The notes under the pieces were generated by a model, which did not search any database, was not told the origin of the DNA, and saw nothing but the letters and a program-made list of their open reading frames with translations. From a virus, in IMG/VR virus record IMGVR_UViG_3300021964_000456, positions 1-25,744 of that record: 25,744 nucleotides of DNA. One strand, given 5' to 3'. Below, piece after piece: positions 13,249 to 25,744 of the stretch. The first letter of the stretch is position 1, and each line of letters begins with the position of its first letter. Both the position numbers and the translations under genes were made by a program.

Positions 13249-13545
13249 TTAACATCTCCAACGTTTACGTGCTTGACGCAAACGACTATTAGGGTCTTTA
13301 GCTGCTTTAGGAAACTTTTTCATTTGACCGGCTGATCTAGCACAATATGATTTACGTCTAGCTGCACGTTTACCAGTAGGCTTCTTTTCAGTCACAGCAG
13401 TCTTCAGCTTAGAGCCGGGATTTTGTCTACGGTATTTAGCAACACCCTTAGCTGTCATACCAGCACCAGATTTAGTGGGACGTTTATCACCACTCTTGAT
13501 GCTCATTCCCTTCATACCCTTACCTGTGCGTTTACGTACAGCCAT
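13249..13545 (-). CDS. Conserved basic protein, DUF6321-like, 98 aa
   Basis: This 98-residue protein has 33 Lys/Arg against three acidic residues. Its core reads MTAKGVAKYRRQNPGSKLKT (residues 30-49), then RAARRKSYCARSAGQMKK, then AKDPNSRLRQARKRWRC at the end. This succession (GVAKYRR.NPGSKL, RRKS.CAR..GM, DPNSR...A..RW.C) matches, as I remember it, the DUF6321 family of small proteins in cyanophages and other marine viruses; the accession should be checked. The family function is unknown. The charge and conserved Cys suggest DNA contact or packaging, by inference. AGGAG lies eight bases upstream and the start overlaps the preceding stop (TAATG). Confidence 0.82.
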   Translation of the reverse strand: MAVRKRTGKGMKGMSIKSGDKRPTKSGAGMTAKGVAKYRRQNPGSKLKTAVTEKKPTGKRAARRKSYCARSAGQMKKFPKAAKDPNSRLRQARKRWRC

Positions 13546-20846: not shown

Positions 20847-21037
20847 TATTGTTCCTCTTCGTATACTCGAATTTTTACAATGTTTTGAATGTTTTCTTTC
20901 GCCAGTTCTAGTCCTTCTATTCTTCCGACTACCTGACGATACTCATCATAACTTGAACTTCCGCCATATGCAAGTAAATTTTTTAAATCTTCGACTTGTT
21001 TATCAAGCTCTTTTGTTATTTCTTCCCATAGTGTCAT
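20846..21037 (-). CDS. Small coiled-coil protein behind the portal, 63 aa
   Basis: This 63-residue protein reads MTLWEEITKELDKQVEDLKN followed by LLAYGGSSSYDEYRQVVGRI and EGLELAKENIQNIVKIRVYE. It consists of two helices joined by a Gly/Ser loop, a helical-hairpin design. Both ends overlap neighbours (TAATG with portal and with the co-chaperonin). I know similar portal-adjacent 60-70 residue proteins in marine phages, where the function is unknown. A portal-assembly or scaffold partner role is possible. Confidence 0.8.
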   Translation of the reverse strand: MTLWEEITKELDKQVEDLKNLLAYGGSSSYDEYRQVVGRIEGLELAKENIQNIVKIRVYEEEQ

Positions 21038-23574
21038 TAATTTTTGTTAGCCTCTTTTGCAAAACCTGATATCATATCAGCAGCTTTTAGCATCTTGGCT
21101 GTATCTGCAGATTCCTGAGACTTAGCAAGGTCCATAATAGCATCAAGTGCTGCAATAGCCTTCTTAGCATTACGATCCTTTTCTTTTTCCTCAACATTAA
21201 TAGAAGTACGAATACCCTCTTTCATCATGTCAATCTGTATCTGTGCTTCCTTCAGGTCAAGTTCGCGGTTCTTCATCGCAGCTTCAACACTTTCCTTAGC
21301 TGTCTGTGCCTGTACCTTAGACTGCTCAACTTGTAGACGCTGCTGTTCAATCTGAACCATCTGAGCTTCAGGTGTAGCCATCTGCTGCATTTGTGCTGCT
21401 GCCTGATTAGCTTGAGCAACCTGTTGTGCTGCTTCAGCCATAACCATTTCCATAACTCTAGGATCATTAGGATCAACCTGACCAGATGCAATAGCTTCTG
21501 GACCATACTGTTCAACAAGCTGTTGGGCTGTTCCTTCAACTTGTTCCTGATATTTCATAATCATATGTTCCTGCATGTTAGCTTCAAGAACAGGAACAAT
21601 ACGCTGCATTAGAGGATTAGCACCATTTTGAGGGTCTTGAATGTAAGCCATCTTAGTTTGAATGTGTGCATCATGGTTCTGACCCATAAAGGCTTTAATT
21701 GGTAGACCCTTAACTGCAGCCATAATATCTGAAACTGGATCAAGTGGTACAGACTGTGGCTTGCGTGGCATAATCTTGTCAAGGTTTGGTAAATTAGCAG
21801 ACTGTAGAATAGAACGATTAAGTTCTTCCATGTCAAACATACCGGGAGGTGACTGCTGTGCAAGCTGTAGAGCCATCTGAGCCATCATCATGCGGTGAGC
21901 ATTAGAGGGAATGTTAGGATCAGATACTGGAATAATATCAATTCGACCATCAAAGTCTGACTTGTAAATTGTTAGTGTGTTTTCTGGAATATCTACAAGT
22001 GATTCTTCAGGTAGATATTCATAGTTAATACGACCAAGAATTTTAAATTCGTCTTTTTGAGATTTGTGTAGGCGCTTGTGAATAGCAGAAAAGAATTTAC
22101 TGCTTGCTTCAAGTAGTGCCATTGTTGTACCAACTGGTCCATAACTTGCTGCATCAGATACAATCTGCTCTGTGCTATCAGCAAACTTTTGTGCGGCGTT
22201 GGAGACAAAGCCTAACATTTGGAATAGAGTCTGCGAAGGTTCTTTGTATGGTAGTGGTATAATCATCTTAGACAGATCATTACCAACTGCCTCAACCTCT
22301 TTCCATTCACCGGGAGCAATAGGATCATTATCTCCAACCATTCGCAACCCTTTAGCTTTAAAACCTCCGGGTAGATTAGCAAACTGTCCAGCGTCAACTA
22401 AACCACGCATAGCAGCAGTAGCTGTCATTGTAAGATTGCCAAGGAAATGAATTAAACCCAAACCATAGAAACCAAAGCCGGGTACAAAACGATAGTGTGT
22501 AAAGAATATTTTCTTTTCTCTACGCTTATCTTTAATATCATAGTTACGACGAATAGAAAGAACTCGTCTCGTTTTCTGTTCAATAGTTACAATATATGGA
22601 AGTGACAGACCGTCATTATCTCCGTGAAACTGCTTCGGTAAATCTAGATAGCAGTGTTGTTCAAGAAGAACATATTGTGGGTCATTTTGTGAAGAAGGGG
22701 AAAGACCCAAGATCGTATCCATCTTCTGAGCCATTGGGGTTTGTTCTGGCATAGAAGCATCAGGCAGGTCAACGTCGGCATACATACCTGCGGCTATGTC
22801 GCGTTGCATTTCAACTGGACTACGATAAATCACATGAGTATAACGGTCTGCCCGTCGCAGGTCCGTCGCATAATAACTAATATAAAATTGATCGATTGGA
22901 ACAAATTCAGATACAGGACGGTTTAAACCCTGATCAAAGTATGTTTTTTTGAATGCTGATCCAATAAGGGGTAGATGAAACAACATACGTTCAAATTCGT
23001 CAAAGTATTCTGTAATCTGATCAGTAACTTGATAGTTCATAAATTCTTTGACACGATTAGCCTGTTCCTGCTTCTCTTCAGTAACATCACCAACAATTTG
23101 TGACTTTACAGGACCGGCAGGAGGAAATAATTCTTGTGTAGCTTTTGACTGAAACTTAACTGCTGACTCAATAAGAATAGGATGCACAGCAGTACAAGCA
23201 CCCTCAAATGGTTCAGACGCTTCTTCAAGTTTTAGACCTAGTAGATCAAAACCACGTTCAAACATACTTTCCCATTCTGAACGTGATTCTTTATCTGCTT
23301 CAAAGTTATCTATAACTTTAGCAGCAATTTCTTCTAGCTCATCTTCATCCATATCTTCTGCTAGATTACGATAAAACTCTTCTGGCTCTTCTTTTTGCTG
23401 TACCTTTGATCTTTCATCTGGTGGAGGACGAAACTCAACAACAATACCACCATCTTCTGGGTCAATCTCCATAAGAGCTTCATTGCCGTTCTCATCTAGT
23501 TCACCAGTAGCTTCAATCTCAATTGATAACTCACCTACTGGAATTGGATCAAAGGGATTACGTTCAGTTGCCAT
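21037..23574 (-). CDS. Portal protein
   Basis: This 845-residue protein is of the large P22-like portal type. Its acidic N-terminus (1-105) is followed by FERGFDLLGLKLEEASEPFE and AVHPILIESAVKFQSKATQE (about 115-150). A core with LIGSAFKKTYFDQGL follows, and then WEKVEAVGNDLS-like and LFQMLGFVSNAAQKFADST segments around 430-470. The C-terminal part (about 690-810) is Gln-rich helical barrel or coiled coil (QQVAQANQAAAQMQQMATPE). It would form the dodecameric ring at the unique head vertex through which DNA passes. It lies after terminase and before the co-chaperonin, scaffold and capsid genes. A weak ribosome binding site precedes the ATG, three bases past the preceding stop. The WEKVEAVG-like wording is approximate: the sequence there reads EWKEVEAVGNDLSKM. 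Confidence 0.9.
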   Translation of the reverse strand: MATERNPFDPIPVGELSIEIEATGELDENGNEALMEIDPEDGGIVVEFRPPPDERSKVQQKEEPEEFYRNLAEDMDEDELEEIAAKVIDNFEADKESRSEWESMFERGFDLLGLKLEEASEPFEGACTAVHPILIESAVKFQSKATQELFPPAGPVKSQIVGDVTEEKQEQANRVKEFMNYQVTDQITEYFDEFERMLFHLPLIGSAFKKTYFDQGLNRPVSEFVPIDQFYISYYATDLRRADRYTHVIYRSPVEMQRDIAAGMYADVDLPDASMPEQTPMAQKMDTILGLSPSSQNDPQYVLLEQHCYLDLPKQFHGDNDGLSLPYIVTIEQKTRRVLSIRRNYDIKDKRREKKIFFTHYRFVPGFGFYGLGLIHFLGNLTMTATAAMRGLVDAGQFANLPGGFKAKGLRMVGDNDPIAPGEWKEVEAVGNDLSKMIIPLPYKEPSQTLFQMLGFVSNAAQKFADSTEQIVSDAASYGPVGTTMALLEASSKFFSAIHKRLHKSQKDEFKILGRINYEYLPEESLVDIPENTLTIYKSDFDGRIDIIPVSDPNIPSNAHRMMMAQMALQLAQQSPPGMFDMEELNRSILQSANLPNLDKIMPRKPQSVPLDPVSDIMAAVKGLPIKAFMGQNHDAHIQTKMAYIQDPQNGANPLMQRIVPVLEANMQEHMIMKYQEQVEGTAQQLVEQYGPEAIASGQVDPNDPRVMEMVMAEAAQQVAQANQAAAQMQQMATPEAQMVQIEQQRLQVEQSKVQAQTAKESVEAAMKNRELDLKEAQIQIDMMKEGIRTSINVEEKEKDRNAKKAIAALDAIMDLAKSQESADTAKMLKAADMISGFAKEANKN

Positions 23575-23577
23575 TTT

Positions 23578-24390
23578 TTATATTGCCTTTGGTTGGTAAT
23601 TATATGGATTACGTTCTACTACAGAACCGCCTTGTTTCTTTGTTTTAGGTGCTAAATTTTTAATCTTTTCAGCTACTCGTTTTGCTCTATCTGGTGTATC
23701 TTTTTTAGCCCAATTTGAATTTAAAGCTTCATCTGCAGCTTTTTTAAATTTACCTTTTCTATAAAGTTTTAGTGTATTTTTAAATTTTGATACTGATGGT
23801 TTACCCATTTGATAAATCATTTCAGCTAAAGGAAGAACTTGATCTTCAGATAACTTAGGAAGTAATTCTTTAGCTTCTTTAATTGAATTTTTCCAACGTG
23901 TTAATCCAACAGACTCTACAATATCTTTAGGAACTGTATCTCCTACTTTTAATTTTTTCTTTCCTATAGTTTTAAGAAAATTTTTATCTACAAGAATACC
24001 AGCGCCTAAAGTTGGTTTATTTTTTGTATCTAGATATACTACATAACTATCAGAATTTTTATTATATTTAGTTGGATCATTAAAATTATATTCACCAAAT
24101 TCTTCAGGAACTACTTCATTACTATAATAAATCTTAGAATAATCAGGTTTTACTTTAGGAAGAGGAGCTTCTTTTTCCTCAGAATAAATCTTAGAATAAT
24201 CAGGTTTTACTTTAGGAAGAGGAGCTTCTTTTTCCTCAGAATAAATCTTAGATAATATATCTTTAAGAGCTGTGTTAGAAGCATCTTCTTGAGTCATAAC
24301 AGGATTTACATTATTACTAGGTACATCACCCGAGGACAACATTGAAGATAATCCTATAGATGCTAAACTTAATAAACCTTTGCCAATCAT
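23578..24390 (-). CDS. T4-lysozyme-like (GH24) protein with altered active site
   Basis: This 270-residue protein has a mildly hydrophobic N-terminus (2-20) and a 19-residue tandem repeat (about 50-87, EEKEAPLPKVKPDYSKIY). A GH24 domain follows (about 100-245). Alignment to T4 lysozyme is clear: VVYLDTKNKPTLGAGILVD (117-135) for the active-site hairpin and MIYQMGKPSVSKFKNTLKLY (191-210) in the C-terminal lobe. DTPDRAKRVAEKI follows at 231-243. Asp121 and Thr127 match catalytic Asp20 and Thr26, but the position of Glu11 is Asn112. The protein may therefore be inactive or use another residue. The tail ends in KKQGGSVVERNPYNYQPKAI, a C-terminus I recall from other phage proteins. The place between terminase and portal suggests a virion or late lytic role. 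Confidence 0.8.
   Translation of the reverse strand: MIGKGLLSLASIGLSSMLSSGDVPSNNVNPVMTQEDASNTALKDILSKIYSEEKEAPLPKVKPDYSKIYSEEKEAPLPKVKPDYSKIYYSNEVVPEEFGEYNFNDPTKYNKNSDSYVVYLDTKNKPTLGAGILVDKNFLKTIGKKKLKVGDTVPKDIVESVGLTRWKNSIKEAKELLPKLSEDQVLPLAEMIYQMGKPSVSKFKNTLKLYRKGKFKKAADEALNSNWAKKDTPDRAKRVAEKIKNLAPKTKKQGGSVVERNPYNYQPKAI
24127..24252 (-). repeat. Perfect 57-bp tandem repeat in lysozyme-like gene
   Basis: Two identical 57-base units lie at 24127-24183 and 24184-24240, followed by 12 bases of a third copy to 24252. The period is 19 codons, so the frame is kept. They encode a Pro/Lys/Glu-rich linker ahead of the lysozyme domain. The lack of any difference between units points to a recent duplication. 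Confidence 0.95.
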
Positions 24391-24459: not shown

Positions 24460-25101
24460 TCAGACGTATTTAAAAATATAATCCTGTACTGTCTTGCCTA
24501 CGCAAGTCATGCCTAAATCATTACAGATGTAGTCAGCAATATCCTGTCTAGAAATACCAAAGCTCTCACAGTTATTCTTAATCTCAATATTAATTACTGG
24601 CTTAGTTTGTTTAATGGTTTCTGCTGCACCCTTGAGAAACTGCATTTCAAAGCCTTCTACATCAACCTTGATATAGTCTACATTATCAAACTCAAAGCTG
24701 TCTAGAGTACGCATTTCTGCAGTATACTCTGCATTCTCTGCAGCTATAGACGCTGTACCGCTATTACCCTCTGTTACATAGCCTAGTGATATTTCTTTTT
24801 CGTACTTGTCACCTAAAGCACAGTCATAAATTTTGTATTCATTCTTAGACTCACTCAAGTTTTTATTTAGACAATCTCTATGATCTTTAATTGGCTCGAA
24901 GCAGATTGTCATGTTAAACATACGAACAAGATCAACTGCCCATGTTCCTACATGTGCACCAACATCAATAGCTGTACCATAGTTATTTACAAAACCCAAG
25001 CTGTGAAACCTGTGTGGTTTCTGATATTCTTCTCCGTTAAAGTGATTATCCTTAACTGGAAAGTAAAACTTATTTCTTTTTTCTAGTATTGTAGATGACA
25101 T
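24460..25101 (-). CDS. FkbM-family SAM-dependent methyltransferase
   Basis: This 213-residue protein carries the SAM-binding motif AIDVGAHVGTWAVDL (44-58) and an acidic-loop FEP (68-70). It also has DYIKVDVEGFEMQFLKGA (142-159), the FkbM signature, followed by KPVINIEIKNN. The family transfers methyl groups from S-adenosylmethionine, often to hydroxyls of sugars or other small molecules. The phage substrate is unknown; a glycan, a modified nucleoside or a surface component is possible. The length is near that of the domain alone, with no signal peptide, so it is cytoplasmic. It is inserted between terminase and the lysozyme-like gene, where structural genes are expected, and looks like an accessory (moron-type) gene. 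AAGGGG lies eight bases before the start. Confidence 0.85.
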   Translation of the reverse strand: MSSTILEKRNKFYFPVKDNHFNGEEYQKPHRFHSLGFVNNYGTAIDVGAHVGTWAVDLVRMFNMTICFEPIKDHRDCLNKNLSESKNEYKIYDCALGDKYEKEISLGYVTEGNSGTASIAAENAEYTAEMRTLDSFEFDNVDYIKVDVEGFEMQFLKGAAETIKQTKPVINIEIKNNCESFGISRQDIADYICNDLGMTCVGKTVQDYIFKYV

Positions 25102-25158: not shown

Positions 25159-25744
25159 CTAAACTCTCCAGTATGCAACTCTTTTCTGTCGTCTTGGGTT
25201 TTCATCGTCTTCCCAATCAGCATCTTCGATATGTTCAATACGCCAACTCTCCTTTAGATATAGCGCAGCCATAGTCAAGGCATCAACTTGGTCATCGTGT
25301 GGCGCATACGGAAAAGTAGTTACTTCTTCTGCTAATTCGTCAGCCCACTGTTTGTATGCTGGCAGATAGATACGCCCAGACTCAAACAGAGGCGTAATAG
25401 CATTCAGCCGTGTTGTTTTATCTTTGTCTGGATTGTATTCCAGAACAGGCAGACCAGCCCTACGCATATCCTGAATTAACGACTGACCACTAGCTTTCTT
25501 TTCTACCAGACAGACATCCGGCCTGTGTGTTTTAAACTGGTCTTGAGCAATTCTTCGTAGGTCTGGATACTCATACCTACCTCTCTTGCTGCCAAGCAGT
25601 ATCATATTGCTTACAATCTGTTCTACGCCAGTATCTTCATCTTCATATACTGAATGAAAAATACCCCATGTCTGTATCACACTAAAGTCTGCTGTGCTGC
25701 TAGTAGAAAAGGCTGTATCGTATGTTTGCAATACAAACTCACAT
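25159..25744 (-). CDS. terL: Terminase large subunit, C-terminal nuclease part (partial)
   Basis: The frame is open to the right edge (no start inside the window), so only about 194 C-terminal codons are seen and the ATPase domain lies outside. The visible part is the RNase H-like nuclease domain. LQTYDTAFSTSSTADFSVIQ holds the first catalytic Asp. RPDVCLVEKKASGQSLIQDM holds the acidic residue of the second motif. HDDQVDALTMAALYL holds the last Asp pair. With the ATPase part it would cut concatemeric DNA and pump it into the prohead through the portal. Its position at the head of the structural genes fits. The tail after the last motif is acidic and then basic (EDADWEDDENPRRQKRVAYW). Confidence 0.93.
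   Translation of the reverse strand, partial: CEFVLQTYDTAFSTSSTADFSVIQTWGIFHSVYEDEDTGVEQIVSNMILLGSKRGRYEYPDLRRIAQDQFKTHRPDVCLVEKKASGQSLIQDMRRAGLPVLEYNPDKDKTTRLNAITPLFESGRIYLPAYKQWADELAEEVTTFPYAPHDDQVDALTMAALYLKESWRIEHIEDADWEDDENPRRQKRVAYWRV

Follow-up and report, generated by a model that had tools for sequence, protein, structure and literature searches.

The gene next to the terminase gene in the window, the 25,744-nucleotide stretch analysed here (positions 1 to 25,744 of IMG/VR record IMGVR_UViG_3300021964_000456), encodes a genuine FkbM-family methyltransferase. It lies between the terminase large subunit gene (terL) and the portal gene, an interval that varies among related phages and holds a wide range of accessory genes in them. 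Sequence comparison indicates that it is an old, co-inherited gene of its lineage that has been kept under selection, and on balance we consider O-methylation of a sugar, in a glycan that the phage's own glycosyltransferases would build, to be its most likely activity.

The window is a virus record of 25.7 kb whose completeness as a genome is not established. The minus strand carries, in order, terL (cut by the window end), the FkbM gene, a lysozyme-like gene, the portal gene, a 63-aa ORF and a gene for a GroES-like co-chaperonin, with the major capsid protein gene coming three more ORFs later (Table 1). The sequence-only reading had placed an FkbM methyltransferase between terminase and portal-side genes and was correct in this: the gene adjoins terL, while the lysozyme-like gene stands between it and the portal gene. 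The lysozyme-like protein had no Pfam match. Read by eye, its translation has a 19-residue direct repeat near the N-terminus, its gene has a G+C content of 0.29 compared with 0.39 for the fragment, and the protein is just 38% identical in loci L082 and L083 although their terL and portal are 99% identical to those of the window. On the tail side, parts of a repetitive protein match several separate genes at 17103-24412 of the relative G001, which suggests duplicated tail-fibre modules.

Table 1. Positions of the features described in the window; motif positions are residues of the FkbM protein.
Feature	Position	Strand	Basis or remark
FkbM-family SAM-dependent methyltransferase, 213 aa	24460..25101	minus	ORF, ATG to stop; Pfam, PHROG, NCBIfam
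FkbM motif I, DVGAHVGTW	residues 46-54
FkbM motif FEP	residues 68-70
FkbM motif KVDVEGFE	residues 145-152
Terminase large subunit (terL), C-terminal RNase H-like part	25159..25743	minus	PF17289 1.6e-13; remainder beyond window end
Lysozyme-like protein, 270 aa, second occupant of the terL-portal slot	23578..24390	minus	phrog_13211 baseplate hub/tail lysozyme 1.6e-13
C-terminal tag GGSVVERNPYNYQPKAI, coding region at the end of the lysozyme-like gene	23581..23631	minus	AAGG shortly upstream of portal start
Portal protein, 845 aa, downstream slot border	21037..23574	minus	phrog_1216 1.6e-38
Basic protein, 98 aa, downstream of the capsid gene	13249..13545	minus
Repetitive tail-side protein, 1091 aa	8666..11941	minus

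The FkbM protein belongs to the Pfam family PF05050 (Methyltransf_21; 9.5e-16, 58.8 bits against a cut-off of 22.7) and to the NCBIfam family TIGR01444 (fkbM_fam; 82.8 bits against a cut-off of 37.7), and it matched the PHROG phrog_8156, a methyltransferase, at 9.1e-28. Residues G48, G52, E69, K145, D147, G150 and E152, which belong to the SAM-binding and KxDxEGxE-type positions of the family, were invariant in an alignment with 23 relatives. The structure model (pLDDT 92.4) has a class I SAM-methyltransferase fold with the FkbM protein 2py6 as the nearest solved structure, which was the top Foldseek match (3.9e-8) and ranked first by Z (15.0, rmsd 2.5 over 163 residues), yet tied, as FkbM, COMT and RNA methyltransferases have equal Z and the fold comparison names no substrate. 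The assignment to the FkbM family is therefore confirmed by Pfam, NCBIfam and the predicted fold together. Like known FkbM-family enzymes (PF05050, TIGR01444, solved structure 2py6), the protein has the family domain and overall fold, the motif for SAM binding and an acidic residue following strand 2; it differs in being a short stand-alone phage form located between terL and portal.

The spacing of terL and portal was examined by a scan of viral contigs for portal proteins that was blind to FkbM. Among the best 80 loci, terL and portal were both readable in 57, and the interval was shorter than 200 bp in 18 of these and longer in 39, with FkbM inside it in three. Interval lengths ranged from 30 to 3,092 bases across all 65 loci with both ends. 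The five closest two-ended loci in the portal scan (portal at least 85% identical) included one with FkbM, L004, while the other four (L005, L006, L007 and L079; portal approximately 88% identical to that of the window) had none, two of their intervals being empty and two holding another gene. As the interval varies in both occupants and length among relatives, FkbM breaks no otherwise fixed block, and the earlier proposal that the gene interrupts a conserved packaging block was not supported. The nearest annotated phages by portal, at 38-41% identity, were phages DSL-LC04 and 023Pt_psg01, the pelagiphages HTVC027P and HTVC023P and the roseophages CRP-901 and CRP-902. The HTVC023P-type pelagiphages and CRP-901-type roseophages resemble the window in that HTVC027P, like DSL-LC04 and 023Pt_psg01, has large genes between terL and portal (in CRP-901 terL and portal overlap), and differ from it in having no annotated FkbM there.

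When ten proteins from the slot and its surroundings were compared with Pfam, the slot gene of G001 showed an SLT domain, a G015 protein a ribonucleotide reductase barrel and one further protein a weak match; the remaining seven had none. The G001 occupant (L172:4983-5630) is an SLT transglycosylase (PF01464, 5.9e-26), another cell-wall enzyme, in a phage with FkbM beside ribonucleotide reductase. Look-alikes of the 98-aa basic protein were seen by eye inside the slot of two other loci (L013:3610-3903 and L015:2740-3048), as if structural-side genes were also moving into it.

A second scan of viral contigs was made with an FkbM alignment, and its best 80 loci were divided into 50 at 58% identity or more and 30 less similar ones. 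Both borders were readable in 38 of the 50 and FkbM lay between them in 38/38, while the remaining 12 had one border present; the 30 less similar loci showed no terL or portal of the window's type in the stretch examined. The dN/dS of FkbM was 0.042-0.063 against six relatives; in the corresponding terL comparison L085 was set aside because of saturation and L086 because its terL is partial and out of frame. The low dN/dS and the constant position in all 38 readable relatives indicate that the presence of FkbM is more than chance.

FkbM distances followed those of the packaging genes, with Mantel r values of 0.94 for terL and 0.88 for portal and none of 2000 permutations as high (14 of 31 loci, 17 near-identical ones having been dropped). 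On a terL tree of 65 rows at least seven changes were needed to account for the presence of FkbM, and well-supported branches require four or more of these, whereas shuffling gave a mean of 20; this tree mixes loci of the portal and FkbM scans, so that the share with FkbM in it is not a frequency, and L128 was excluded as it is on the same contig as L025. A branch of moderate support (92/85) placed the 34 slot copies together on one side in an FkbM tree of 59 rows, and the replication-side FkbM genes adjoined them. One scan of cellular genomes, which relied on two short conserved peptides and was not exhaustive, gave three relatives, all distant (28-37% identity), and a fresh capture from a host was rejected on this result. 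A profile search for FkbM in 12 related records, which may be fragments, gave five with and seven without a match, three of the latter being 47-54 kb long.

The Mantel correlations, the dN/dS near 0.05 and the recovery of no more than distant cellular relatives in the one genome scan argue for an old, co-inherited and repeatedly lost gene rather than a fresh acquisition, with repeated loss most simply explaining its patchy presence. The suggestion of a likely acquired accessory gene was therefore borne out as to accessory status, FkbM being absent from the close relatives L005, L006, L007 and L079, while recent acquisition was not supported, given the tracking of terL and portal, the one-sided slot group and the distance of the cellular relatives in one genome scan. 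That FkbM is always present at this place in the lineage, the outcome named in advance as speaking against the proposal, was rejected on the strength of the changes on the terL tree, the seven of 12 records without a match and its presence in three of 57 intervals.

FkbM genes at 46-56% identity were located outside the terL-portal slot. Ribonucleotide reductase (phrog_367) is the direct neighbour of the gene in L150; the L136 gene has DNA polymerase on one side and ribonucleotide reductase on the other, and that of L131 is near a primase-helicase. The contig of L150, G001 (59.4 kb), has a portal 60% identical to that of the window, and in gene content and order it is like the relative G015 (50.7 kb), whose FkbM gene occupies the slot. 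This likeness, with FkbM in different positions, indicates that the gene occupies two alternative places in one lineage.

The sequence-only reading had also noted no partner glycosyltransferase in view, which holds for the 25.7-kb fragment, but a protein with the MptE-like domain PF01973 (open frames of 728-837 aa) was found in all six of the searched related records of at least 40 kb. The absence from the window is thus probably a window-edge effect. Over all related records the protein was present in 10 of 17, the shorter ones often ending before that region. The domain assignment of this large partner was supported at 56.8 and 61.4 bits (cut-off 34.6), while with scores of 24.5 and 30.3 bits against the NCBIfam model FlagModPseD, which has a cut-off of 670, it is not filed as Maf/PseD. 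The large partner also contains a methyltransferase-like stretch, and its N-terminal region looks glycosyltransferase-like by eye from an acidic motif; the MptE-like alignment gave no solved relative by sequence.

Directly before the MptE-like gene in the three relatives mapped (G001, G012 and G015) is a gene for a protein of 251-262 aa. A model of its homologue in L136 (pLDDT 85.7) has a GT8-type GT-A fold, with the best match to the GT8 protein 3tzt (Z 16.3, rmsd 2.8 over 190 residues), and all 50 of the top structural matches listed were glycosyltransferases or glycogenins. Five of 11 members matched the Pfam family PF01501 (Glyco_transf_8) at 0.01 or better (best 3.2e-5) and the two with bit scores given, 16.9 and 16.7, were below the cut-off of 24.3; given these weak matches the protein is referred to as GT8-like and is not filed as GT8. 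The one solved chain that matched the GT8-like alignment by sequence, SUMO-2 at 0.002, was taken as chance.

Part of the distant relatives of the FkbM gene had a GT8-like gene nearby. Among 13 distant phage loci (L094, L095 and L152-L162), eight had one in the stretch around FkbM, within 1.6 kb in seven cases, although two of the eight are near-copies (L161 of L154 and L159 of L158); none was seen in the stretch examined for the other five (L094, L095, L152, L156 and L160). One of three cellular loci, the Burkholderiales metagenome-assembled genome (MAG) locus L163, had a GT8-like gene 11 bases from FkbM and, on the other side of FkbM, a gene resembling the N-terminal part of the large MptE-like protein, while the stretches examined for L164 and L165 contained no GT8-like gene. 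At the nearer FkbM loci outside the slot (L131-L136 and L138-L150) a GT8-like gene was present 4-5.4 kb away in 10 of 19, and neither a GT8-like gene nor one like the large protein was found in the 130 other loci scanned (0/130). FkbM relatives occurred in 32 of 50,697 GenBank phage records, and 16 of the 18 records with a GT8-like relative also had an FkbM relative; 14 of these 16 are Caulobacter phages, and there the listed places are separated by tens of kilobases. Only a single gene lies between FkbM and the GT8-like gene in Pelagibacter phage Mosig.

Based on the relatives, we infer that FkbM is paired with the GT8-like and MptE-like proteins, the genes for which would lie outside the 25.7-kb record. 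The GT8-fold enzyme and the MptE-like protein of approximately 730-840 aa would build the glycan, their genes in relatives being in the replication half, a part outside the window's fragment, and FkbM would act as an optional tailoring enzyme, as related phages with the MptE-like protein and without FkbM exist. Ancestrally FkbM was probably beside the glycosyltransferases, an arrangement seen in one bacterial locus and a number of distant phages, and in the lineage of the window it probably moved to the terL-portal slot, after which it was inherited with terL and lost several times. The substrate would be a sugar, and the position among packaging genes together with the weak similarity of the large partner to PseD flagellin modification proteins suggests late expression with those genes and a protein-bound glycan, perhaps of the virion, as acceptor. 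Counting against the pairing are the large distance between FkbM and the glycosyltransferases in the window's lineage and three related records of 47-54 kb in which the MptE-like protein is present but nothing matched FkbM.

The proposed tailoring role has a counterpart in bacteria. FkbM genes serve as tailoring genes in bacterial flagellin glycosylation islands, and a single FkbM gene can be all that distinguishes one island from another, according to PMC4875605. Those islands, as presented there, resemble the phage case in that FkbM is optional and the glycosyltransferases are in the same genome. They differ in that their genes are clustered, while the FkbM gene of the window is detached among packaging genes and has no link to flagellin. 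Named phages with FkbM relatives (Mosig, Tetraselmis viridis virus S20, DSL-LC06, MW202462 and Ochrobactrum phage vB_OspM_OC) were 24-30% identical to the window's protein, and four of the five stretches, vB_OspM_OC being the exception, had an annotated glycosyl-, mannosyl- or heptosyltransferase within 4 kb of FkbM. None of the five stretches (up to 4 kb on each side) had FkbM annotated between terL and portal, which sets them apart from the window; in MW202462 FkbM is approximately 1.5 kb upstream of a terminase gene. The word FkbM is absent from the main texts of PMC9599517 and PMC10149686.

An alternative that we regard as unlikely is that, late in infection, FkbM alters the lipopolysaccharide or capsule on the host surface and so blocks superinfection or the loss of progeny to debris. 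The placement of the gene among late genes would fit such a role, as would phage DSL-LC06, where FkbM adjoins an annotated heptosyltransferase with glycosyltransferases and a KpsC-like protein further on, but the large partner is weakly, and far below the FlagModPseD cut-off, most like enzymes that act on proteins.

It is a good deal less than probable that FkbM methylates a nucleotide, a nucleotide sugar or a modified DNA base, serving nuclease evasion or the tuning of nucleotide pools, and we give this only a minor place. The neighbourhoods in L150, L136 and L131 with ribonucleotide reductase or replication genes point in this direction, as does Mosig, in which FkbM is less than 4 kb from both ribonucleotide reductase subunit genes; related HTVC023P-type pelagiphages carry thymidine hypermodification genes, as stated in PMC9599517, and G015 encodes a 2OG-Fe(II) oxygenase. 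However, the glycosyltransferase genes share those neighbourhoods, the GT8-like gene is the shared neighbour in distant phages and one bacterial locus, and no Pfam family named for DNA hypermodification was found among the 23 G015 and 18 G001 proteins scanned, a subset of the ORFs. Highly improbable is a recently captured host gene carried as a passive passenger without a phage role, which the G+C content of FkbM (0.357 against 0.39 for the whole fragment) and its patchy presence might suggest and against which stand the low dN/dS, the co-inheritance with terL, the one-sided slot group and the recovery of just three, distant cellular relatives in one scan.

Many of the other occupants of the slot share a strictly C-terminal tag of 17 residues with the consensus GGS(V/I)(V/I)ERNPYNYxx(K/R)AI. 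Thirty slot genes, near-copies included, end in this tag, and their bodies without it fall into three BLAST groups of 21, 7 and 2. A DNA-pattern scan of viral contigs gave 56 stretches, in which a peptide pattern without an end condition identified 61 occurrences, among them previously found and near-identical contigs, and the tag was 17-18 residues before a stop in 61/61. It was directly before portal in 41 cases and in four it ended the first of two tandem genes; two more lay past the portal start, at distances of 3.4 and 11.1 kb downstream, and 14 had no portal match in the stretch. Among 14 tags compared, third codon positions differed 375 times and the other two 139 and 122 times. The last codons of the tag contain an AAGG ahead of the portal start, but its strictly C-terminal place, its occurrence in some cases away from portal and this third-position excess count against mere read-through of the portal ribosome-binding site. 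Loci that bear the tag include L086, L091, L216, L226, L239, L244 and L253.

Pfam searches with 27 chosen tagged proteins (E at most 0.001) gave three ART-PolyVal, two Phage_L5_gp82 and one Phage_lysozyme2 matches. The tagged slot protein L086:1176-2750 had a sub-threshold match to ART-PolyVal, the ADP-ribosyltransferase of polyvalent proteins (3e-6, 28.5 bits against 31.2). Lysozyme domains and virion packaging are among the themes of polyvalent phage proteins in PMC5512222, and a literature search with three spellings of the tag motif gave no match. Our guess is that the tag may be a virion-targeting address for slot proteins. FkbM itself has no tag. We tentatively raise the possibility, which we rate as less likely than not, that the slot is a dedicated swap site for infection-time effectors, in which many occupants that bear the tag (among them lysozymes, proteins resembling ADP-ribosyltransferases and some with no known domain) would be addressed to the virion and ejected with the DNA, while the untagged and older FkbM would act inside the cell on phage glycans.

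A phage FkbM gene is easily dismissed as an orphan accessory, and its glycosyltransferase neighbourhood in distant relatives provides a testable class of substrate. The slot around it marks a site of accessory-gene exchange in these marine phages, and the tag on other occupants, if it is a virion address, would make ejected phage proteins easy to find from sequence.
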